From Oscillospiraceae bacterium (GTDB lineage: Bacteria > Bacillota > Clostridia > Saccharofermentanales > Saccharofermentanaceae), in the NCBI GenBank assembly GCA_902787975.1, contig CADAIP010000006.1, positions 75,193-139,192 on the forward strand: a stretch of DNA of 64,000 nucleotides, in the 5' to 3' direction. Numbering within the stretch: the first letter of the stretch is position 1; every line of letters begins with the position of its first letter. This document shows positions 47,940 to 63,525 of this stretch, in pieces. A program made the translations under genes and the position numbers. The notes below the pieces were generated by a model. That model was given only the letters and a program-made list of their open reading frames with translations, was not told where the DNA came from and made no database searches.

Positions 47940-48480
47940 ATGCAAGTCTGTTGGTGTCAGAACTTTCGATTCTTTTAAATGGGTATTGCTGATTATGATG
48001 ATTTCACTTTTTTCATTTTTCTCGTTCGGATGCGGCAAACAAGTTGAAACGGAAACTACGGTTCCGCCGTCTTCGCCTGAAGAATGCATTACTGCAGAAA
48101 ACCAGGTTTTCTCATATTATGAAGCCGTCGTGGGAACACAGGACGGAGATGAGAGCATTTCATACAGACTGTATAAATACACTGATTCTGAATTGGTGCT
48201 TGTAAGAACCGATAGTGATACTGATGATAAAGTGACCACGAATTACCGTATCGTTCCTTCATCTGTTCTTGATGACTGCCTGAAGCTCGCTAAGAAATAT
48301 AAGATGGGCAAAGGCAAGTGGATTGATGGCGACGGGATTGTCGGTGGAGAGCTTTCGATCAGTTTTGTTAAGGATGGGGAAGTAATATCCGTCAGTTCGT
48401 CTCACATGCCTGATAATGGTATGGAAGCTTTTCATGCTGTCAGAAAGGTTCTTGGAGAAGCCTGGAGCCAGGGAAAGTAA
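47932..48480 (+). CDS. lipoprotein of unknown function
   Basis: The start at 47932 overlaps the end of the preceding gene by 8 bases. The 182-residue product has a hydrophobic N-terminal segment with lipobox SFGC (Cys near residue 36), a Thr/Pro-rich linker and an outside domain with VVGTQDGDESISYRLYKYT. No family recognised. It is convergent with the acetyltransferase gene after 4 bases. Confidence 0.65.
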   Translation: MNECKSVGVRTFDSFKWVLLIMMISLFSFFSFGCGKQVETETTVPPSSPEECITAENQVFSYYEAVVGTQDGDESISYRLYKYTDSELVLVRTDSDTDDKVTTNYRIVPSSVLDDCLKLAKKYKMGKGKWIDGDGIVGGELSISFVKDGEVISVSSSHMPDNGMEAFHAVRKVLGEAWSQGK

Positions 48481-48484
48481 GGCA

Positions 48485-49012
48485 TCAAATTGCAGCATGG
48501 TCTCCGATGAGTTTTTCCATCCAGATCATGCTGTACCATTTATTGAATTTTCTTCCGCAGTTATTAAATGTTCCTACGGTCCTGTAGCCCATATGACTGT
48601 GGAAATCCCTGCTGTTGTTTGTGAGGTATCCGTCTTCTTCCGAAGGCACTCCGATGCATGCGTAAAGGTTGATTATCCCCATCTGTTTGAGCCGGTCTTC
48701 CAGTGCTTCATAAAGCAGTTTTCCGAGACCGCATCTTTTGGAATCGTGATCTAGATAGATGGTGGTCTCAGCAGAGTATGAATAAGCATCCCTGCCTACG
48801 AAAAGATGTGCATACGCATAGCCTTTGACATCGCCGTCTTTTTCGATGACAAGGTAAGGGTAATTCTTTTGGATCTCGGTCAGGCGGCGCTTGAATTCAG
48901 AGAGCGAAGGCGTAGTGAGTTCAAAAGATATTGCCGTGTGTTCCACATAATATGAATAGATCTCAAGAAGAACTTTGGCATCTTCTTCTCTGGCATCACG
49001 GATGGTGATCAT
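48485..49012 (-). CDS. GNAT-family acetyltransferase (phosphinothricin-acetyltransferase-like)
   Basis: The 175-residue product begins MITIRDAREEDAKVLLEIYSYY and has VKGYAYAH, then RCGLGKLLYEALEDRL as the acetyl-CoA loop, and FHSHMGYRTVGTFNNCGRKF near the end. These match the PAT/BAR-like GNAT subgroup, which acetylates amino-acid analogues such as phosphinothricin or methionine sulfone. It lies just downstream of the nitrogenase-like operon terminator on the same strand, so it is probably a separate unit. Confidence 0.88.
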   Translation of the reverse strand: MITIRDAREEDAKVLLEIYSYYVEHTAISFELTTPSLSEFKRRLTEIQKNYPYLVIEKDGDVKGYAYAHLFVGRDAYSYSAETTIYLDHDSKRCGLGKLLYEALEDRLKQMGIINLYACIGVPSEEDGYLTNNSRDFHSHMGYRTVGTFNNCGRKFNKWYSMIWMEKLIGDHAAI

Positions 49013-49042
49013 TTAATAACCTCGTTTCTATAATATACAGAA

Positions 49043-49068
49043 GGGGTGCCCCAGATGAGACAGCCCCT
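49043..49068 (-). terminator. terminator of the nitrogenase-like operon
   Basis: On the minus strand, GGGG, a bulged C, TGTCTC, a short loop, GGGGCA and CCCC form a stem with G-U pairs, followed by TTCTGT. It resembles the GGGTGTCTCA terminators elsewhere in the window, in altered form. It lies 27 bases after the last gene of the operon. Confidence 0.55.
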
Positions 49069-49094
49069 CCTGCGAAAGAAGAAACACACGAAAG

Positions 49095-49850
49095 CTAGCT
49101 GAATCTAACTTCGGTATGTTGTGTATCAAACCAAACGTTCAGGTCGTTTGCACCCCTCAATCCTACGGATCCTTTGCCAAGATAGATGATAAGCGGAGAA
49201 CGGTAATCACCGGCTTTATATATCTTGCCGTCTGCCTCTACGCGGGTCTGAAAAGTGGTGAAACTTAAGAGGTTGCCGTCTTCATCAAATCTTGCGGAAG
49301 CATCTTCGGAGTGAAGCATATGCTTTCTTACCTTGAACGGTTTGGCATCGCCGTATTCGGTTTTAAATATCGTTCCAAATGAAGGTTCGATACTTCTTAT
49401 TTTTTTGTCTTCGTAGATCTCGATTCCGAGTTTTGTCGCAACCGGACCCTTAGGCGTGTTAACGGTAATCTGATCACCGGGCCACAATGTTATGCTTCTG
49501 ATCTTTCCTGAAGGGTAAAAGTAGATGCATTGCGGGCGGATATTTATCATCTCGTCACCGACGGTAAAGACATATCCGGGAGCATTTACGATCTCATCTT
49601 CGACACTCCAGTAACTGCTTAACTGACCGTAAAGAGGGAAGAGTCTTTTTATGTTTCCGTCTTCGTAAAATGTGATCAGTTCTGCCTGGAACTTACCTTC
49701 CGGAAGTGATATCTCTTCGGGTTCCTGAAGGTAGATGCTCTTGATATTTCCGTTCAGGTGGTATTCCACCGGGCAGCGATACTTTTTTCGAAGATCGGAA
49801 GCATCGTTGCACGCGGTGAATTCACCATATTTTGTCTTTACCTTATCCAT
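49095..49850 (-). CDS. YwqK/MORN-like repeat protein, last gene of the nitrogenase-like operon
   Basis: The 251-residue soluble product consists of repeats with the core YxxGxIKSI: LNGNIKSI (about 32-39), YEDGNIKRL, YPSGKIRSI, YEDKKIRSI and DEDGNLLSF, most followed by a strand and ITVNTPKGP-type turns. It starts 9 bases after metQ and is therefore co-transcribed with the transporter and the nitrogenase-like genes. I recall similar proteins beside other nitrogenase-like clusters, but the role is unknown. It could be a scaffold or a sensor. It carries only a few Cys residues and no iron-sulfur motif. Confidence 0.7.
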   Translation of the reverse strand: MDKVKTKYGEFTACNDASDLRKKYRCPVEYHLNGNIKSIYLQEPEEISLPEGKFQAELITFYEDGNIKRLFPLYGQLSSYWSVEDEIVNAPGYVFTVGDEMINIRPQCIYFYPSGKIRSITLWPGDQITVNTPKGPVATKLGIEIYEDKKIRSIEPSFGTIFKTEYGDAKPFKVRKHMLHSEDASARFDEDGNLLSFTTFQTRVEADGKIYKAGDYRSPLIIYLGKGSVGLRGANDLNVWFDTQHTEVRFS

Positions 49851-49859
49851 TGCTCCTTA

Positions 49860-50768
49860 TCAGCCGAGATCTACAACAGGGATTACTGCACCATTGTAGT
49901 TATCCTGGATCCACTGCTGTGTTTCTTCTGAGAGAAGAGCATCAACGAGTGCCTTGACTGCAGGATTGTCCAGATCTTCTGTTCTTACTGCGATGATGTT
50001 TGCGTAAGGGCTGTCTTCACCTTCGCTGAAGAGCTTGTTTGATGTGATGCCTGCTTCGAGTGCTTTGTTTGTGTTTGTGATGAAGAAATCATAGTCATCC
50101 TTTGTAGGAATGATCTGTGCTGAATCGATCTCTACGATCTCGATGGGCTTAACATAAGAAACGATATCATCTACTGAAGCGGAGAGAGAATCTCTTGCTG
50201 CATCATCGAGCTTGATGAATCCGTTGAGCTCAAGGATCCTGAGTGCCCTGTATTCGTTTGTGCCGTCATTGGGGATTGCGACTATAGCGTTGTCGGGTAC
50301 TTCGTCAACAGAAGCATACTTATCAGAATATGCTGTGATGGGTTCGATGTGGATACCGCCTGCGCTTGCAAGATCATAGCCGTTTGCTTCTATTTCGCTC
50401 TCGAGATAAGGAAGATGCTGGAAGTAGTTGAAATCGATCTCGCCGGAATTAAGTCTCTCGTTTGTTGTTGAATCTGCAGCCGTAGAAACGAGCTCGATGT
50501 AGATACCCTGTTCTTCAAGCTGGGGTCTTACGTGTTCGATGATCTCAGAGTGGGGAACGAGGTCAACGATACCTCTCAAAACGATCTTTTCTGTTGTTTC
50601 TTCGCCGGAAGTTTCTGCTTCAGACTGCTGCTCTTGTGTAGCAGAAGTATCTACCTCAGCTGCATTGAGTGAAGTGCCTGTGCTCTTTGAAGAGCAGCCT
50701 GCAAGGCCTAATGCGAATGACGCAATCGTTGCGATTGAAATAAATTTTGTTGCAATGTTCTTATTCAT
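49860..50768 (-). CDS. metQ: substrate-binding lipoprotein of a MetNIQ-type transporter
   Basis: The 302-residue product has a signal peptide with lipobox LAGC (Cys at 25), a Ser/Thr/Glu linker and an NlpA/MetQ domain with VDLVPHSEIIEHV, FNYFQHLPYL and AIPNDGTNEYRALRIL. MetQ proteins bind methionine or related sulfur compounds. Here it is the third transporter gene, downstream of metI- and metN-like genes and the nitrogenase-like genes. The actual ligand may be a methylated sulfur compound rather than methionine; that is inference from context. Confidence 0.85.
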   Translation of the reverse strand: MNKNIATKFISIATIASFALGLAGCSSKSTGTSLNAAEVDTSATQEQQSEAETSGEETTEKIVLRGIVDLVPHSEIIEHVRPQLEEQGIYIELVSTAADSTTNERLNSGEIDFNYFQHLPYLESEIEANGYDLASAGGIHIEPITAYSDKYASVDEVPDNAIVAIPNDGTNEYRALRILELNGFIKLDDAARDSLSASVDDIVSYVKPIEIVEIDSAQIIPTKDDYDFFITNTNKALEAGITSNKLFSEGEDSPYANIIAVRTEDLDNPAVKALVDALLSEETQQWIQDNYNGAVIPVVDLG

Positions 50769-50789
50769 AATGTTTTTCTCCTTTGGTTG

Positions 50790-51500
50790 TTAAATAAGAT
50801 TTCTTGTTTTTAGTATTTGTTTTGATATAAGATTTCCGATCCCCTGGATCAGCTGAACCAGAATGACCAGGATATATACACAGGCGAAAAGTTTGTCGTG
50901 CTGGAATCTCTGGTAACCGTATCTGACTGCAATGTCTCCGATACCGCCTGCACCGAACATTCCCGCGAGTGCCGTCATGGAAAGGACCGTGATGACCGAT
51001 ACTGTGAATCCTCTGATCAGGGAAGGTAATGTCTCCGGAATAAGTATCCTGAAGATGATATTAAGATTTGAGCTTCCCATAGCTTTGGCTGCTTCGATCT
51101 TTCCTTTCTCGATCTCCAGAAGGCTGCTCTCGACGATCCTCGCATACATTGGGATACAGCTTGCTGCGATGGCAATAATGCATGCATTTGTACCGTATGC
51201 TTTACCGAAGATGAGTCTTGCTACAGGTATCATGAGAATGATCATTATCATCTGCGGCAGTGATCTCAAACAGTTGATTATCCAGCCTGATACCGAGTAG
51301 GAGATCTTGAGCGGTACGAGTCCGTCAGGATTGGTAACAGTGAAGAAGACTCCGATTACCAATCCGAAGACGAGCATTATCAGAGAAGATATCGCCGTCA
51401 TGTAAAGCGTCTCGCCGATCGGACCCCAAAGATCTTTCCAGATTTCAGGGGAGAAGGATGCTACGATAACATCCCATAAAGATGAATCCAATAAACTCAT
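50790..51500 (-). CDS. metI: MetI-type ABC permease
   Basis: The 236-residue product has about five to six membrane helices and the permease loop EAAKAMGSSNLNIIFRILIPE (about 133-153), with ALAGMFGAGGIGDIAVRYGY near the end. These match MetI, the permease of methionine importers. It lies 10 bases after the ATPase and 21 bases before metQ, in one operon with the nitrogenase-like genes. Confidence 0.88.
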   Translation of the reverse strand: MSLLDSSLWDVIVASFSPEIWKDLWGPIGETLYMTAISSLIMLVFGLVIGVFFTVTNPDGLVPLKISYSVSGWIINCLRSLPQMIMIILMIPVARLIFGKAYGTNACIIAIAASCIPMYARIVESSLLEIEKGKIEAAKAMGSSNLNIIFRILIPETLPSLIRGFTVSVITVLSMTALAGMFGAGGIGDIAVRYGYQRFQHDKLFACVYILVILVQLIQGIGNLISKQILKTRNLI

Positions 51501-51510
51501 TTTCTCCTCC

Positions 51511-52296
51511 TCAAATACCGCCGCCGTGGGTCAGCTCGACATTCTGCATCTGCATGAATACTCTTGCAAATAGTTCTCCGGTCTTGCTGTGCGGATTCTC
51601 AAAGATATCTCTTACCGAACCGCTTTCCGTTATCTTGCCTTCTTCAAGAACAGCCATCCTCTTACATGAATATCTGATGGCATCAAGTTCATGAGTGATC
51701 ATAAGGATCGTTATGCCTTGCTTTCTGTTTATCTCCTTAAGAAGGTCAAGTATCTGGATGGTGGTCTGCGGATCGAGTGCTGATGTCGCCTCATCTGAAA
51801 TGATGAAATCAGGATTGGTGACGATTGCTCTTGCGATTCCGACTCTTTGCTTCTGTCCTCCGGAGAGTGCTCCGGGATGGGCTTTGAGCTTATCTGTAAG
51901 ACCTACCAGTTCTGCTGTTTCCAAAACTCTCTTTTTGATCTCGTTCTTGGGAACACCTGCGATCTCAAGCGGGTAAGCTATGTTCTTGTAAACAGACAAA
52001 CAGTCGAAAAGATTGAAACTCTGAAATATCATTCCGATCTTATGACGTTTTTTGAGGATCTCTTTATTAGAGAGCGACAATATGTCTGTTCCACCGAGTT
52101 TTACCGATCCGCTGTCAGGCTTTTCCAAGCCGTTGATGCATCTGGCAAGTGTTGATTTTCCTGCGCCGGAGAATCCGATGATTCCGAAGATCTCGCCTTT
52201 CTCAATCTCAAGATCGATACCTTCCAATACTTTCAGCGGCTGACCATGAGGATAAAAAGTTTTGTGCAGATCTTTTATCTTAAGATATGTACTCAT
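51511..52296 (-). CDS. metN: MetN-type ABC ATPase, short form without NIL domain
   Basis: The start at 52296 lies 4 bases after the nifB-like stop; a longer frame would overlap the nifB-like gene by 55 codons. The 261-residue product has Walker A GFSGAGKST, signature LSGGQKQR, Walker B FIISDEATSALD and Switch His in THELD. MetN is usually about 340 residues with a C-terminal NIL (ACT-like) domain that binds methionine and shuts off transport. Here the protein ends about 20 residues after the ATPase core, so that control should be missing. It is joined to the nitrogenase-like genes by near-overlap. Confidence 0.88.
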   Translation of the reverse strand: MSTYLKIKDLHKTFYPHGQPLKVLEGIDLEIEKGEIFGIIGFSGAGKSTLARCINGLEKPDSGSVKLGGTDILSLSNKEILKKRHKIGMIFQSFNLFDCLSVYKNIAYPLEIAGVPKNEIKKRVLETAELVGLTDKLKAHPGALSGGQKQRVGIARAIVTNPDFIISDEATSALDPQTTIQILDLLKEINRKQGITILMITHELDAIRYSCKRMAVLEEGKITESGSVRDIFENPHSKTGELFARVFMQMQNVELTHGGGI

Positions 52297-52300
52297 TGTC

Positions 52301-53575
52301 TTAACCGTGGCTGAAAGTATCAGCGGCCCTTTCTTTCCTGTCTTTGTAAAGTTCGTTATGAAGGTCTTTGCCTTTGCCCGGAATTCCGAGACTGTCTGCA
52401 CGGCAGTGCTGGCAGTGGCGGAAGACTTCAAGATATTTGCCTGCTTCCTGTCTGACTTCTTCAAGATCAGCGCAGGAGGGAGCCTTGATATCTTTCATCT
52501 CGTTTTGCGGGATAAGAGGAATGATATTCAGTATGGAAGCGCCGAGTTCGGCAGTTTTCTTTGCTACTTCGGGTATATGCTTATCGTTAATGCCCGGCAC
52601 AAGCACACTGTTTATCTTTACTACTATTCCTTTCTGGGCTGCTAGGCGGATGCCTTCCAATTGCTTCTCGATGAGAAGCTTTGCACCTTCTACGCCATCG
52701 TGTCTCTTGCCTTCGGAATCGATTACGAAGTTGTTTATCTGAGCTTCGATCTCAGGATCTATGGCATTGACTGTGACAGTAAGTGTCTCGATTCCGATTT
52801 TGGCGATCTCCTCGACCTTATCGGGAAGACGGAATCCGTTTGTGGAAAGACAGCAGATAAGGTCGGGAAAGTTTTCTTTTACTAATCTGAATGTCTCAAG
52901 AGCGCTGTCCGTAGCAAGCGTATCGCCGGGACCTGCAATTCCGACCACTGTTAGTTCAGGGCAGATCTCTCTTGCTTTCTTAACTGTTTCCACTGCTTCT
53001 TCCGGCTTCAATACGAGTGAACTTACACCCGGTCTGATAACCGATTTGTCAAACCCTCTGCTGCAGAACCTGCATCCGATGTTGCACACGGGGCTGACGG
53101 GAAGGTGAAGCCTTCCGGCGGTCACATTCGAATGGCCTCCCAGGCATGGATGTCTTTTTTGAAGGTTTTCAAAAGAATGGTTTTTATTGTCTCCATTGTT
53201 TTGTTTCCTTTCTTTCTCTTCTTTGTATCGTGGATCTACAATGTCCACACGGGCAGTGAAGAGTTTGTTGATAACAAATTCAACTTCACGCTCAATGTCG
53301 ACGCTTTGTATTTTTCTGTCGTAAAGGATCTTTCTTGCGTGCTCGCCTGATCTTGCTGAGAAAACGATGTTGCAGTCATCTATCTCGTCAGCGAGTCGTT
53401 CAAGAAGGGAATCGTCATGCTGCAGGCTTACACCGAGGCTGTCGATCCTTCTGGTATCGACCTTGACGAATGACTTGTTATCTCTGTCAATCTCATAGAT
53501 ATCAAATCTGTCAGCCACACCGAAGTGCCGGTTGATATTGATTCCGTCTCCTGTTGCAAATGCTGCTCTTAACAT
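52301..53575 (-). CDS. NifB-like radical SAM protein with N-terminal NifX-like domain
   Basis: The 424-residue product has an N-terminal NifX/NafY-like domain (about 1-105; FATGDGININRHFGVADRF) and then a NifB-type radical SAM domain with HPC (142-144), CNIGCRFC (Cys 164, 168, 171), AGPGDTLA and HCRADS near the C-terminus. NifB makes the iron-sulfur-carbide core of nitrogenase cofactors. In known two-domain NifB the NifX-like domain is C-terminal; here the order is reversed. It follows nifH after 10 bases and precedes the transporter. It suggests that the D/K proteins hold a complex cofactor. Confidence 0.88.
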   Translation of the reverse strand: MLRAAFATGDGININRHFGVADRFDIYEIDRDNKSFVKVDTRRIDSLGVSLQHDDSLLERLADEIDDCNIVFSARSGEHARKILYDRKIQSVDIEREVEFVINKLFTARVDIVDPRYKEEKERKQNNGDNKNHSFENLQKRHPCLGGHSNVTAGRLHLPVSPVCNIGCRFCSRGFDKSVIRPGVSSLVLKPEEAVETVKKAREICPELTVVGIAGPGDTLATDSALETFRLVKENFPDLICCLSTNGFRLPDKVEEIAKIGIETLTVTVNAIDPEIEAQINNFVIDSEGKRHDGVEGAKLLIEKQLEGIRLAAQKGIVVKINSVLVPGINDKHIPEVAKKTAELGASILNIIPLIPQNEMKDIKAPSCADLEEVRQEAGKYLEVFRHCQHCRADSLGIPGKGKDLHNELYKDRKERAADTFSHG

Positions 53576-53585
53576 GTTTACTTCC

Positions 53586-55778
<2,193 letters not shown>

Positions 55779-55797
55779 TTTAGAATCCTCCGTTTTC

Positions 55798-57282
55798 TTA
55801 TCTTGCGCAGCCTCTGCCGGAACCGTCGCCCTGGAAGTAACCGGGATCCTGTTCAAGCCACCACTTTGTGTAGGGGTTTGAAGCGTGCTTGGAGTAATTC
55901 TTTATGAACTCAATTGAGTCCAATGTATCTTCAATTCTTCTTGCATAATTCAATGCGCCCTGGTAACCGATACCAAACTGCTCGTCACCGATGAGAAGGG
56001 AAGGAATGCCGAACTTTGCTCCCCAGAGTGTCATTCCGCCGTGTCTTGCGAGAATGAAGTCAGGCTTGATCCTGTTGAGTGCATTTACGAGCTCACATGC
56101 CTGCTTGTTGCATACCCTGTAATCGGGTACGTCACCATAGTTTTTAACTGCCTGGCCTAAGATATCGAGCTTATCGTCACCGCTGTCATATACCGGATCG
56201 TGATGGAATACGGCAGCACCGACAACTTCAAATCCGAGTTCGTTGAGAAGTGTTATGAGAGCCTGACCATGTGCGGCACCTGCTGTTACATATGCTCTCT
56301 TGCCCTTGAACTTTTCCTTGAGTTTATCGATCTCGGGAACGTACTTTTCGTGGCCTTCCTTGATGATCTCTTCAGCGATATCTTCTTTGCCAAGTACCTT
56401 GCCCAGAGCTCTGAGCCATCTGTCTGTTCCTGCGACACCATATGCCGGAGGCACGAGGACTTCAGGTACTCCGTGGAGCTGGTTCAATCCGGCTCCCATG
56501 TATGTTGAAAGTGAAGGGCAGATGTGGATCGTAGCAGCAGCTTCGCTTGCGTGTGAGAGCTGTTCTACTGTTGAGAAAGGTACGATATACTGTGCTTCGT
56601 AACCGAATCTCTCGATGATCTCATCGAAAACATGGCTGCCCCAGAAATTGATGATGTTGATCTTGTTTGTTTTCTTTTCTGCAGGCTTTACTATGCCTCT
56701 TAACACTGTATGGTATGCAGCATCAAAACCTGTTGTCCAGATCTTTGATCGGAAGCCTTCGCAGTTGCATGTGACAACCGGGATTCCGAGTTCTTCTGAA
56801 GCTTTTTCAACTACTGCTTCAATGTCTTCTCCGATGATGCCTGATGCGCATGAAGTTGTTACGAAGATTGCATTCGGATGAACTCTGTCATATGCAAGCT
56901 TGATTGTTTCTTCGAGCTTTTTTGCAGCTCCGAAAACAGTATCCTTCTCAGTAATGTTAGATGAGAAGTATCGTCCTAATTCGGGAGGAAGATTTCTTCT
57001 TGCCTGTTCTACTCTGTATGTGAAATTGAAATCTGCAAATTCTCCTGAGCAGCCGATGGGAGCGTGGTTGATAACTGCTGCATCCCTGATCATTGCGAGC
57101 TGGCAGAAAGCCTGCTGCTGGTTGCAGCCGAGGCACTGTGAGAATTTTCTCTTGCAATCTTTGAGTTCACCCTTGGCAGACTTTTCTACGATTTCAGAAG
57201 CTGTACCTGTGAACGCGTTGATCGTTCCGAGTCTCTTTTCGCGTATCACTACGCTGGGCTCTTTAATGTTTATTGTTGACAT
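55798..57282 (-). CDS. nitrogenase-like component 1, NifD-type subunit
   Basis: The start at 57282 has AGGAG; the upstream ATG at 57327 lacks one. The 494-residue product keeps P-cluster ligand candidates Cys53 (LGCNQQQ), Cys78 (APIGCSG) and Cys145 (TTSCASGIIGED). Cys255 (IHICPSLS) aligns by eye with the cofactor cysteine of NifD (Cys275). The position of the cofactor histidine (His442) falls at Gly432 in LLIGDEQFGIGYQG. So a cofactor is probably bound, but not in the normal way. It is the first gene of the operon; the operator and promoter are described separately. It may be a methylthio-alkane-reductase-type or another uncharacterised enzyme. Confidence 0.9.
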   Translation of the reverse strand: MSTINIKEPSVVIREKRLGTINAFTGTASEIVEKSAKGELKDCKRKFSQCLGCNQQQAFCQLAMIRDAAVINHAPIGCSGEFADFNFTYRVEQARRNLPPELGRYFSSNITEKDTVFGAAKKLEETIKLAYDRVHPNAIFVTTSCASGIIGEDIEAVVEKASEELGIPVVTCNCEGFRSKIWTTGFDAAYHTVLRGIVKPAEKKTNKINIINFWGSHVFDEIIERFGYEAQYIVPFSTVEQLSHASEAAATIHICPSLSTYMGAGLNQLHGVPEVLVPPAYGVAGTDRWLRALGKVLGKEDIAEEIIKEGHEKYVPEIDKLKEKFKGKRAYVTAGAAHGQALITLLNELGFEVVGAAVFHHDPVYDSGDDKLDILGQAVKNYGDVPDYRVCNKQACELVNALNRIKPDFILARHGGMTLWGAKFGIPSLLIGDEQFGIGYQGALNYARRIEDTLDSIEFIKNYSKHASNPYTKWWLEQDPGYFQGDGSGRGCAR

Positions 57283-57362
57283 GTGTTTCTCCTTCTTCGA
57301 TATGCGCACATTGTGTTTGCATCGCAATTTTCGAATGAGGAGATAATAACGCTGTGATCCGG

Positions 57363-57380
57363 TTTGCGATAATACGCAAA
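57363..57380. promoter_or_regulatory. palindrome TTTGCG-N6-CGCAAA
   Basis: A perfect 6+6 base palindrome with a 6-base centre between the MET-box-like operator and the -10 element of the nitrogenase-like operon. It overlaps the -35 area, so it could be a repressor site. No such palindrome is seen upstream of the second operon. Confidence 0.45.
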
Positions 57381-57390
57381 AGCGATACTG

Positions 57391-57413
57391 GGTTATAGAC
57401 GCAGCCTATAACC
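57391..57413. promoter_or_regulatory. MET-box-like LysR operator, nitrogenase-like operon
   Basis: GGTTATAG and CTATAACC flank a 7-base centre, giving TATAG-N7-CTATA (centre 57402). This equals the form of the streptococcal MET-box. The centre is about 66 bases before the predicted start of transcription, the usual activation site of LysR-type regulators. The same motif, with the same symmetry and distance, lies upstream of the amidotransferase operon. Confidence 0.65.
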
Positions 57414-57583
57414 TGTAAAGGAGTTTTTACCTCTTTGTTTGAGAGCTTATAAAGTGCTGAAAATAAAGCATGTTACAATACATAAACAACACTGCTTGAC
57501 ACGTATTATTTACTTGGATATAAACATATTCACAAGATGATATGGATGATGATTTGAAAGCAGGATTATGGGGATAAAAACAG

Positions 57584-58795
57584 ATGACGGACACAATTAC
57601 AAAACAACAGGCTAGACAGTTCATACTTGCAAAACAGGGTCTGATAGGGACTTACCGTTTCACGGGAAAACAGGGAGCTTACGAGTATGTCCGTCAGGCA
57701 GGATGCATACAGTACGATCCCGTTGACGTATGCGGTAAAAATGCTGAACTTACCTTGCAGTCAAGGGTAAAGGGTTTTAAGAAGACGATGCTTCATGAGC
57801 TCCTTTATAAAGACCGCCTTTTTGTGGATTATCCGGATAAGGAATTATCCATCTGGCCTTCGGAAGACTGGTCGTATTTCTCGTCTTACAGGGAGAGAAG
57901 CATTAAGTCCGGCAAGTCATTTAAGGGACTTAAGAGACTTGAGAAAGAGGCAATCGAATATATAGATAAGCACGGTCCCGTAAGCAGTGATACGCTCCCG
58001 ATCGAAGGTGAGATATTCTGGCATTCTTCGATGCATTGGAGCGGAAACTGGGACAAGAAATCTCCTGCGGCAAGATCAGTTCTTGAGCAGCTTTATACGG
58101 ACGGAGTCCTAGTTATACACCATAAGAAAGGAAGCCGTAAGTTTTACGATCTTGCGGAAAAACATTTGCCGAAGAATTATCTTGAAGCTGACAATCCCTG
58201 TAAGGATGAAGAGAGTTTTCTTTCATGGAGAGTGTTAAGAAGGATCGGTGCCGTGGGACTTCTTTGGGATAAAAACAGTACGGCATATCTGGGTTTGTAT
58301 CTGAATGCTGAAACGCGCAAAACGATTCTTTCTGATCTGCTGTCTTCGGGAAAGATCATTGCTGTCATGGTAGAAGATATCAAGCAGCCGTTTTATTATC
58401 TATCTTCCGATGATGAACTTATGCAGAAGGTGAAGAGTGGAAGTGCGGATCTTAAACCGCGCATGGCTTTTGTAGCGCCGCTCGATCCGTTGTTCTGGGA
58501 TAAGTCATTGATACAGGCATTATGGGATTTTCAATACACCTGGGAAATCTATACTCCTGCTGCAAAAAGAAAGTATGCGTACTATACTTTGCCGGTCCTT
58601 TACGGTGAAAGGTTTGTGGGACGCATCTACGTCGTTCCGGATAAGGACAGATCTGTTCTTATGGTCAAAGGTCTTTGGTGGGAACCAGGTGTCAGACAGA
58701 CCAAAAAGCTGGGAGCTGCTTTGGAGAAGACTCTTAATACCTTCAGTAAGTTTAATTGCTGCAATGACTTTGAGATAAGTACTGATTTACTTTAA
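57584..58795 (+). CDS. YcaQ/AlkZ-family DNA glycosylase-like winged-helix protein
   Basis: The 403-residue product has the family motif in GCIQYDPVDV (IQxD, about residues 39-48) and the following ELTLQSRVKGF, then LAPLDPLFWDKSL-type block (written FVAPLDPLFWDKSLIQ here) and PVLYGERFVGRI. The QxD motif residues are needed for unhooking of DNA crosslinks in AlkZ/YcaQ; here it is QYD, so activity is plausible. It is divergent from the nitrogenase-like operon and convergent with the glutamate-cysteine-ligase-like gene, with an overlap of 4 bases. Confidence 0.8.
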   Translation: MTDTITKQQARQFILAKQGLIGTYRFTGKQGAYEYVRQAGCIQYDPVDVCGKNAELTLQSRVKGFKKTMLHELLYKDRLFVDYPDKELSIWPSEDWSYFSSYRERSIKSGKSFKGLKRLEKEAIEYIDKHGPVSSDTLPIEGEIFWHSSMHWSGNWDKKSPAARSVLEQLYTDGVLVIHHKKGSRKFYDLAEKHLPKNYLEADNPCKDEESFLSWRVLRRIGAVGLLWDKNSTAYLGLYLNAETRKTILSDLLSSGKIIAVMVEDIKQPFYYLSSDDELMQKVKSGSADLKPRMAFVAPLDPLFWDKSLIQALWDFQYTWEIYTPAAKRKYAYYTLPVLYGERFVGRIYVVPDKDRSVLMVKGLWWEPGVRQTKKLGAALEKTLNTFSKFNCCNDFEISTDLL

Positions 58796-62394: not shown

Positions 62395-63312
62395 TCAGAC
62401 CTTATTCAGATACTCGTTGATCTTCTCGATATAGAGTTTTCCCAGTCTGCTCGGAACGGTGTTTTTGCGGGTGATGTAACCGATCTGCATCTTGCTCTCG
62501 CTGTCGTCTTCTTCAGCTTTGAATGGAATGGCAAGATAGTCGTCACCGTTTAATTCTTCGCAGATGATTCCGGAGCAGAGCGTATAGCCGTTAAGGCCTA
62601 CCATGAGGTTTAATATCGTAGCTCTGTCGCACGCTTTTATGATCCTTGAATAATCTTTTGTACTGAGTATCTCTTCCGCATAATAAAAAGACGAATCGCC
62701 CTGCTCAAAAGACAGACACGGATATTCTTTTAAGTCTTCAAAAGTAATGGATTTCTTTTTCGCCAGAGGGTGACCCGACCAAAGATAAACATATGCATCG
62801 CAGTTGATCAGCGGATGGAATTCAAGACCGGCTGCCCTGAGAAGTTTGCCGATCGCTCTTTTATTGAATTCGCTTAAGTAGATGATGCCGATCTCGCTCT
62901 TAAGATTTGAGACGTCAGAGATTACTTCCTGTGTTCTGGTTTCCCTGATGGCAAGCTCATATCTGGATGTATCGTTATCTCTTACCAGTTCGACGAAAGC
63001 CTTTACGGCGAAAGAATAGTGCTGTGTGGAAACGCCGAACTTCTTTTTGAAGTTCTTTGAACTGTCAAAGCGCTCAACAAGTTCTGAATAGTCGTTTATT
63101 ACCTGTCTGGCATAAAGGATAAAATCAGAACCTTCGGGCGTCAGGGTAACGCCTCTTCCGCTTCTGATGAAGATGGAGATGCCAAGCTCTTTTTCCAGTT
63201 CCTTAACTGATTCTGTCAGGGATGGCTGTGAGACATACAGAACCTCAGAAGCCTTGTTGAGAGAACCGGCTTCAGAGATGGCAATGGCATAGCTGAGCTG
63301 TTGCAGAGTCAT
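62395..63312 (-). CDS. LysR-family transcriptional regulator
   Basis: The start at 63312 has AAAGGA and gives the usual LysR beginning MTLQQLSYAIAISEAGSLNK; an ATG at 63378 is less likely. The 305-residue product has the N-terminal winged helix (ASEVLYVSQPSLTESVKELE) and a LysR substrate domain typical of the CysB/MetR/CmbR-like range, with CLSFEQGDSS and VGLNGYTLCSGII. It is encoded upstream on the same strand as the amidotransferase operon, with the operator just after its stop. I infer that it binds the two TATAG-N7-CTATA sites. Confidence 0.88.
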   Translation of the reverse strand: MTLQQLSYAIAISEAGSLNKASEVLYVSQPSLTESVKELEKELGISIFIRSGRGVTLTPEGSDFILYARQVINDYSELVERFDSSKNFKKKFGVSTQHYSFAVKAFVELVRDNDTSRYELAIRETRTQEVISDVSNLKSEIGIIYLSEFNKRAIGKLLRAAGLEFHPLINCDAYVYLWSGHPLAKKKSITFEDLKEYPCLSFEQGDSSFYYAEEILSTKDYSRIIKACDRATILNLMVGLNGYTLCSGIICEELNGDDYLAIPFKAEEDDSESKMQIGYITRKNTVPSRLGKLYIEKINEYLNKV

Positions 63313-63525
63313 GGCAGTAGATCCTTTTCTGATAATTTTTAAGCAAGTATAATACATTTTGCGCGAAAAACCTATCAAAATAGTATGATAATAATGCCGA
63401 TTTCTTTAGGCAATTTCTATAAGCCTGGTTTCATGGTCGGATCGGTGAACTAAAAAAATAAATCAAGCATTTGATATAATGATTGCGTGTATATAAGCCC
63501 TTTTAGTTAACCTTTGGAGAGATAA

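Follow-up and report, generated by a model that had tools for sequence, protein, structure and literature searches.

The stretch of DNA analysed here (hereafter the window) comprises 64,000 nucleotides of contig CADAIP010000006.1 from an Oscillospiraceae bacterium of the family Saccharofermentanaceae. It carries on its minus strand a run of eight genes: two nitrogenase-like catalytic subunits (D and K), a NifH-type reductase (H), a NifB-type enzyme (B), the importer genes MetN, MetI and MetQ, and a MORN_2 protein. Judging from sequence, the run represents a real and widespread variant of enzymes like methylthio-alkane reductase (MAR), often accompanied by a dedicated importer and sister to the methane- and ethylene-releasing enzyme. 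We think it likely that the operon is an anaerobic sulfur-scavenging system, in which an ATP-driven C-S reductase would act on an amino-acid-like thioether and the resulting thiol would enter methionine.

The contig (C6 in our numbering) belongs to a draft genome of 2.72 Mb in 51 contigs, and every statement below on its gene inventory holds for an assembly that is 90.7% complete. Gene context was compared over 81 loci, that is, the window and the best 80 of 561 related stretches, which are cited by L numbers where needed; the 16 same-genus loci are the window and L036-L050, the short L051 being omitted.

Relationship of D and K to methylthio-alkane reductase

By sequence, tree and predicted fold, D and K are closest to MAR of Rhodospirillum rubrum and not to NifDK or NifEN. 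Against the PDB, D reaches 436 bits with MarD (43-44% identity), the best nitrogenase following at 125 bits; K reaches 422 bits with MarK, the next match scoring 60 bits. Foldseek with an AlphaFold model of D (pLDDT 80, pTM 0.83) retrieves 9fmg_A first (E 9e-44, TM 0.88/0.93), while the best NifD stands at E 2e-22. An earlier note, made from the window sequence alone, named MAR as the nearest characterised system but called it an analogue in logic. The first part stands; the second is too weak, MAR being homologous and part of the same superclade. In the phylogeny proposed there as a check, D joins the MarD clade and not NifDK or NifEN, although it lies outside the R. rubrum branch itself, as its sister.

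In MarD, Cys270 and His429 are the cofactor ligands, Arg428 together with His429 is a possible hallmark of MAR, and His194, Trp195 and His375 surround the likely substrate site (PMC12552129). In this numbering, D of the window keeps Cys66, Cys73, Gln74, Cys91, Cys158, Trp195, Phe199, Cys270, His375, Arg428 and His429, and has Ile (its own Ile181) at position 194. Since NifD of a nif cluster from the same family (L055) likewise has Cys at the places of Cys66, Cys91 and Cys158, we regard these three as P-cluster ligands. K holds three of the four MarK cysteines, and we judge the presumed P-cluster set of both subunits to be kept. Of the NifD residues that N2 reduction requires, Gln191 is Trp and His195 is Phe in D, and Arg occupies the site of a Gly strictly conserved in nitrogenases (PMC12552129).

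Our careful tree of D has 53 rows, among them 38 from the window clade, four from a third clade and two from canonical MAR. Canonical MAR and the window clade are joined with support of 97/92 (canonical alone 100/100, window clade 99/98); the third clade falls outside them and all three are joined at 98/98. A quick tree of 73 rows (72 distinct) agrees, with SH-aLRT 94 for canonical plus window clade and 98 for the window clade. In both, the NifD and NifE outgroups sit on long branches, for which the tool issued a warning.

Position 194 is His in 6/6 canonical rows, aliphatic in 48/48 window-clade rows (Ile 33, Val 10, Met 4, Leu 1) and Ile in 10/10 rows of the third clade. Cys73 is kept in all six canonical and in 47 of the 48 window-clade rows (one gap) and lost in all ten third-clade rows. 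At thirteen further positions, invariant in the six canonical rows, 90% or more of the window clade has another residue; of these positions, four (371, 427, 432 and 436) are near His375 and the Arg-His pair. These counts omit the NifD and NifE rows, six D copies without the Arg-His pair, TreponemaA (Thr at 194) and three duplicates.

The D gene is common among relatives. Of the 115 genomes examined in the family, 27 have homologues with at least 56% identity, so that the gene set is not a product of chance; rumen or omasum metagenomes are the source of several named near relatives. Among 291 genomes of the class, 14 match a canonical MarD-like query at E 1e-60. Five of these have a His194 copy, accompanied by a window-clade copy in four and by a third-clade copy in the fifth. 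Such coexistence of canonical and other D types in one genome argues for different jobs.

A Clostridium metagenome contig (G319, seen as L174 and L114; L174 8453-17535) combines in a single cluster canonical MarDK (D 71% identical to R. rubrum) with window-clade DK, Opp-type and MetNIQ genes, and its H is frameshifted too. In L052-L054, from the same family as the window, a third-clade D belongs to clusters of CysK, NifB, NifX, H, D, K and NifX. A second D-K pair is present in L052 and L054; its D is without the Arg-His pair and may be a scaffold or another reductase. Genomes represented by L111, L081, L083, L093 and L094 have at least two DK-like copies close together, some without the MAR ligand pair. 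Among the 30 listed of 253 matches in a plasmid collection, 27 are annotated as NifE, one is unannotated and two are group-IV-like (Chlorohelix, 61%; Treponema saccharophilum, 42.5%).

The NifB-type enzyme and the gene inventory

B matches solved NifB at E 7e-85, and the motifs that we take to be those of NifB are present, bar one variant. The genome of the window contains one DK pair, two MetQ genes and one MORN homologue. It further has three strong pyridoxal phosphate (PLP) genes of Cys/Met metabolism and a weaker one above cut-off. Beyond the window, two proteins are of O-acetylhomoserine (OAH) sulfhydrylase size, judged by size and Pfam family only. Since there is only one DK pair, NifEN is absent from this genome, and no NifV was found above its cut-off. 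The claim that nifE, nifN and nifV are missing thus stands. The conclusion once drawn from it, that the system is not one of nitrogen fixation, does not follow, because NifDK of Roseiflexus matures without NifEN (PMC11573651) and Endomicrobium proavitum is reported to incorporate 15N2 with group IV nif-like genes only (PMC9147875). The replaced Gln191 and His195 are a stronger argument, and on such residue grounds the system is not one of classical nitrogen fixation.

The reductase gene

In the window, H is read as two overlapping frames (53941-54420 and 53586-54041), eight bases being missing near 54006 relative to L056, whose D is 99% identical. Full-length H is present in 78 loci, some of which are the same contig counted twice. 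Partial matches occur in the window and its copy L164, in L114/L174 (one genome with a separate frameshift) and in L061, where the match ends at residue 246 of 280; in L058, L115, L134, L135, L138 and L152 the match runs off the end of the stretch. Besides H, the genome has one partial NifH-family match above the Pfam cut-off (33 bits, positions 6-76), and the same search gives matches in 14/14 control genomes as well. A profile search of the genome found no other full NifH.

Both the frameshift and this missing substitute would fit an operon in decay, without current function in this genome. Yet D, K, B, MetI and MetQ have open frames and share 97-99% identity with their counterparts in L036 (the contig of L056, where H is intact), MORN sharing 87%, and a draft in 51 contigs may well contain an assembly error or a strain mixture. 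We regard decay as doubtful, albeit a real prospect; it would be compatible with the function proposed for the lineage. As the reductase gene is broken in the assembly, we argue that function for the lineage and not for this genome.

The importer and its binding protein

The reductase-linked MetQ proteins are of a distinct type. An NE[YF]R motif is found in 41 of 43 of them, compared with one of 63 open reading frames from 61 control loci, which carry NEAR, NGGR or similar at this site. Controls were 30 top-scoring loci and 30 hand-picked from lower rows, with the known D-adjacent matches (G304 and contig 6 of G172) and the window's own operon copy omitted. The single control exception comes from a 14 kb contig part in which D has no match, and adjoins MetN, MetI, two OAH-sulfhydrylase-type genes and an SsuA-type gene. 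The MetQs with the motif group in a single clade, of 25 rows once thinned at 85% (SH-aLRT 99). We also considered the Glu of the motif as a special mark and rejected it, for the housekeeping MetQ of the same genome has it too (NEAR); only the following aromatic residue and a change at Tyr81 therefore separate the groups.

In Neisseria MetQ, Arg156, Asn213 and Asn238 clamp the ligand at its amino and carboxyl groups, while Tyr81, Phe98, His100 and Tyr103 pack its thioether (PMC6739813). Of the 41 linked MetQs with the motif, 40-41 keep each clamp residue (gaps otherwise), 39 keep Phe98, and all 41 keep His100 and Tyr103. The position of Tyr81 is Asp or Glu in 38 of them; in the control rows it is Tyr in 53 of 63. 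With the clamp kept and an acidic residue in place of Tyr81, the best guess for the cargo is an alpha-amino acid with an altered side chain. Compared with the ordinary MetNIQ methionine importer, the window type thus shares the homologous components and the clamp, and differs by its own MetQ clade, the acidic residue and the aromatic residue before Arg156.

Sulfur genes around D

Across Clostridia, the neighbours of D are genes of methionine and cysteine metabolism. MetI and MetQ are near D in 35 of the 81 loci, OAH sulfhydrylase or cystathionine lyase in 47, CysK in 24 and any of these in 62. For the 47 loci with full flanks, the counts are 23 for MetI and MetQ, 31 for OAH sulfhydrylase or cystathionine lyase, and 40 for any including CysK. 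By our reckoning, about 1% of 16 kb stretches would hold a MetQ by chance, given two MetQ genes in 2.7 Mb. SsuA-type genes are near D in 14 of the 81 loci and SsuC-type genes in 13. In NCBIfam, the long PLP type is nearest to OAH-sulfhydrylase models (TIGR01326 above cut-off in 2/5 scanned) and the short type to the cystathionine gamma-lyase model (2/2 below cut-off). The sulfur link suggested in the earlier note is borne out by these neighbours. The gene set itself is no unique case but widespread, and its MetNIQ part is optional, occurring in 10 of the 16 same-genus loci; both facts had escaped that note.

Operon layout and control

The features are collected in Table 1. The genes follow one another from 57282 to 49095 with gaps of 4-26 bases, for which we picked the start codons (ATG at 57282 for D, whose stop ends at 55798, at 55778 for K and at 52296 for MetN). 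An eight-gene operon on one strand, as previously described, is hence upheld, whereas H as a single open frame fails on the frameshift and the end terminator could not be found in a scan of 48350-49200. The predicted nitrogenase-like and NifB-like nature of the products agrees with Pfam, which places PF00148 on D and K, PF00142 on both H pieces, and radical SAM and Nitro_FeMo-Co on B. Lipoprotein_9 falls on MetQ, and MORN_2 scores 30 bits with a cut-off of 29.6. NCBIfam gives the same gene kinds, yet every match is below its curated cut-off.

Table 1. Coordinates of the genes and of the candidate control element in the window
Feature	Position	Strand	Basis
D, catalytic alpha subunit, MAR-like sister clade	55798..57282	-	MarD Cys66/91/158, Cys270, His375 and Arg428-His429 kept; His194 replaced (Ile181)
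K, catalytic beta subunit	54447..55778	-	Cys at 3/4 MarK Cys positions (presumed P-cluster ligands)
H, NifH-type ATP-dependent reductase	53586..54420	-	Frameshift near 54006; relatives have 8 bases more
B, NifX-like domain fused to NifB-type radical SAM cofactor-core enzyme	52301..53575	-	Pfam, NCBIfam, NifB match
MetN-type importer ATPase	51511..52296	-	NCBIfam
MetI-type permease	50790..51500	-	NCBIfam
MetQ-type binding lipoprotein, reductase-linked clade	49860..50768	-	NEYR motif, Asp at Tyr81 position
MORN_2 protein	49095..49850	-	Pfam; single genomic copy; kept in 16/16 same-genus loci
Candidate LysR-type operator, interrupted dyad GGTTATAG-N7-CTATAACC	57391..57413	-	Dyad sequence
GNAT acetyltransferase, downstream of MORN gene	48485..49012	-	Homologues in 9/21 clustered loci

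The GNAT gene starts 82 bases after the MORN gene with no terminator found between them, and it may be the last gene of the transcript. An Rfam scan of 48000-58000 at gathering scores gave no match. The MORN protein has no PADLOC family, and its model (pLDDT 77) no Foldseek match at E <=0.001. A distant MORN_2 homologue was noticed near the nif cluster of L055 (5951-18585; G003, same family), whose NifD scores 628 bits to TIGR01282 with a cut-off of 654; the MORN protein may thus be tied to nitrogenase-type systems in general.

The LysR operator previously pointed out is a plausible candidate. Similar dyads lie upstream of D in 4 of 12 relatives examined (L056, L037, L066 and L070), and a LysR-cluster gene is directly upstream of D in 13 of the 16 same-genus loci (Pfam confirms two members). 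The window itself has no D-adjacent LysR. A LysR-family gene does lie about 5 kb upstream of D (62395-63378), 53-59% identical to other near-D LysR proteins of relatives and 50-52% to the D-adjacent ones. In L063 and L064, a perfect hairpin with arms of 10-11 bp immediately precedes the ribosome-binding site, some 48 bases upstream of D; the two differ in sequence and possibly represent leader control.

Comparison with known systems

MAR (MarBHDK of R. rubrum; PDB 9fmg and 9d9u; PMC12552129) resembles the window system in its D/K/H/B set with a NifB-type maturase and no NifEN, in Cys270 and His429 with Arg428, in Trp195, Phe199 and His375, and in the link to methionine. It differs in D (43-44% identity, separate sister clade, residue 194) and in architecture. 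As already claimed in the earlier note, gene order, transporter and repeat protein are not those of MAR: the window has the order D-K-H-B, a dedicated MetNIQ and a MORN protein, to which the NifX-like domain fused to NifB and the LysR gene can be added.

In published terms, subgroup IV-C is MarDK and IV-A is NfaDK, the latter including E. proavitum and P. riograndensis (PMC9147875). Since Paenibacillus and Treponema rows fall inside the window clade in the careful tree, this clade is probably IV-A (Endomicrobium, Heliophilum NflDK1, Paenibacillus), an assignment that rests on taxa and on the MetY/CysK context. MarHDK-like IV-A genes have been described within mlp clusters or close to them, a figure legend naming MetY and CysK as well, and methionine salvage was suggested (PMC10418091). 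The clade and its methionine link are thus partly anticipated in print. The available parts of the two papers propose N2 fixation or methionine salvage and do not mention the MetNIQ subclade. Our literature search, outside which the 2020 MAR paper fell, met no mention of the residue change of the sister clade or of the MetQ subclade; where the search covered genes of nitrogenase type in the rumen, or nitrogenase together with MetNIQ, it turned up nothing recognisable as this system. IsrBHDK (PMC11423573) follows the same logic of nflBHDK genes with an organosulfur importer but differs in having no cofactor ligands and in a B closest to BciD.

Proposed function and alternatives

We propose the following course of events. 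B would make the [Fe8S9C] core (L-cluster), which would go straight into D with no NifEN step, and the D2K2 protein would carry P-clusters and the [Fe8S9C] cofactor. With ATP, H would feed electrons to DK, which would reductively cleave a C-S bond. Its organosulfur substrate, most likely a thioether or sulfonium resembling an amino acid, would enter through the dedicated MetNIQ importer. The thiol set free (methanethiol or similar) would be captured by O-acetylhomoserine sulfhydrylase as methionine, with cystathionine lyase and CysK leading on to cysteine. Homology, ligand residues, clade, gene context and the altered MetQ pocket are read from sequence. The steps up to the cofactor type rest on the conserved ligands; cofactor content, reaction and substrate class we infer, the last two from MAR and gene context. 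The idea of a new reductase for an imported organosulfur compound survives in part: a new substrate is possible, and the importer is optional.

Several points weigh against this reading. H is frameshifted in the window, and the deletion may be real or an assembly error. Canonical MAR is thinly sampled, with two rows in the careful tree and six in the residue counts. The MetQ groups were split by the motif itself, which makes the aromatic residue before Arg156 a difference by construction; some rows can be aligned at Tyr81 only with a gap, and the housekeeping MetQ of the same genome (counted twice among the controls) is also without Tyr81, having Ser. Moreover, the MetQ signature was inherited within a single clade and does not amount to 41 independent cases, and some contigs were counted twice. 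Six of the 16 same-genus loci are without MetNIQ and the MetQs elsewhere in those genomes are only 37-39% identical, so the importer is not obligatory. Seven of the 47 full-flank loci have none of the counted sulfur genes. Subgroup IV-A, the probable identity of the clade, includes an organism reported to fix N2 (PMC9147875), and our literature search found no biochemistry on the window clade.

An ordinary MAR acting on volatiles (dimethyl sulfide, 2-(methylthio)ethanol, ethyl methyl sulfide), with MetNIQ merely co-regulated for methionine uptake, would explain the kept MAR ligands and the persistence of D, K, H and B in the six loci without the importer. We hold it to be unlikely, as D forms a separate clade with an aliphatic residue 194 throughout and changes at 13 other canonical-fixed positions, canonical MarD coexists with it in four of five genomes, and the linked MetQs are not ordinary ones. 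A third C-S-cleaving reading, which seems to us decidedly unlikely, supposes an imported cationic or decorated thioether amino acid that would yield thiol for methionine and possibly a small hydrocarbon such as methane; the clade would then be a further nitrogenase-superfamily branch across anaerobes of rumen, termite gut and soil. S-methylmethionine, a sulfonium amino acid of plants, would go well as cargo with the acidic residue that the MetQ pocket has acquired.

A group IV-A (Nfa-type) nitrogenase, reducing N2 without NifEN and with nearby sulfur genes serving cofactor sulfur or being coincidental, we consider very unlikely. It could draw on the 15N2 incorporation reported for E. proavitum with only such genes and on the Paenibacillus Nfa proteins (PMC9147875), on Paenibacillus rows in the window clade, and on the dispensable NifEN of Roseiflexus (PMC11573651). 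The features of Mo, V and Fe nitrogenases are missing, however: Gln191 and His195 are Trp and Phe, Arg stands at the conserved Gly, and the genome yields neither NifEN nor NifV above cut-off. The Met/Cys neighbours and the changed MetQ pocket do not suit it either, and MAR, which has the same ligands, is unable to reduce N2, even though it is described as alone among nitrogenase-like enzymes in having the large nitrogenase cofactors (PMC12552129). Sulfonate desulfonation with sulfite release, as in isethionate reductase, which likewise has an nflBHDK set and an ABC importer and would fit the SsuA- and SsuC-type neighbours, is scarcely credible, since IsrD keeps one of three P-cluster Cys and has no cofactor Cys and IsrB is nearest to BciD (PMC11423573), whereas here both kinds of Cys are present in D and B is NifB-like.

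Taken as a C-S reductase with its own importer, the system provides a second clade with MAR ligands and a changed pocket residue, so that the two clades lend themselves to a comparison of what determines the choice of substrate. The function of the IV-A enzymes thereby becomes a concrete question. If true, the imported-thioether reading would recast claimed group IV-A nitrogenases as sulfur enzymes. Because many hosts are gut anaerobes, a hydrocarbon by-product could also matter for gut gas.

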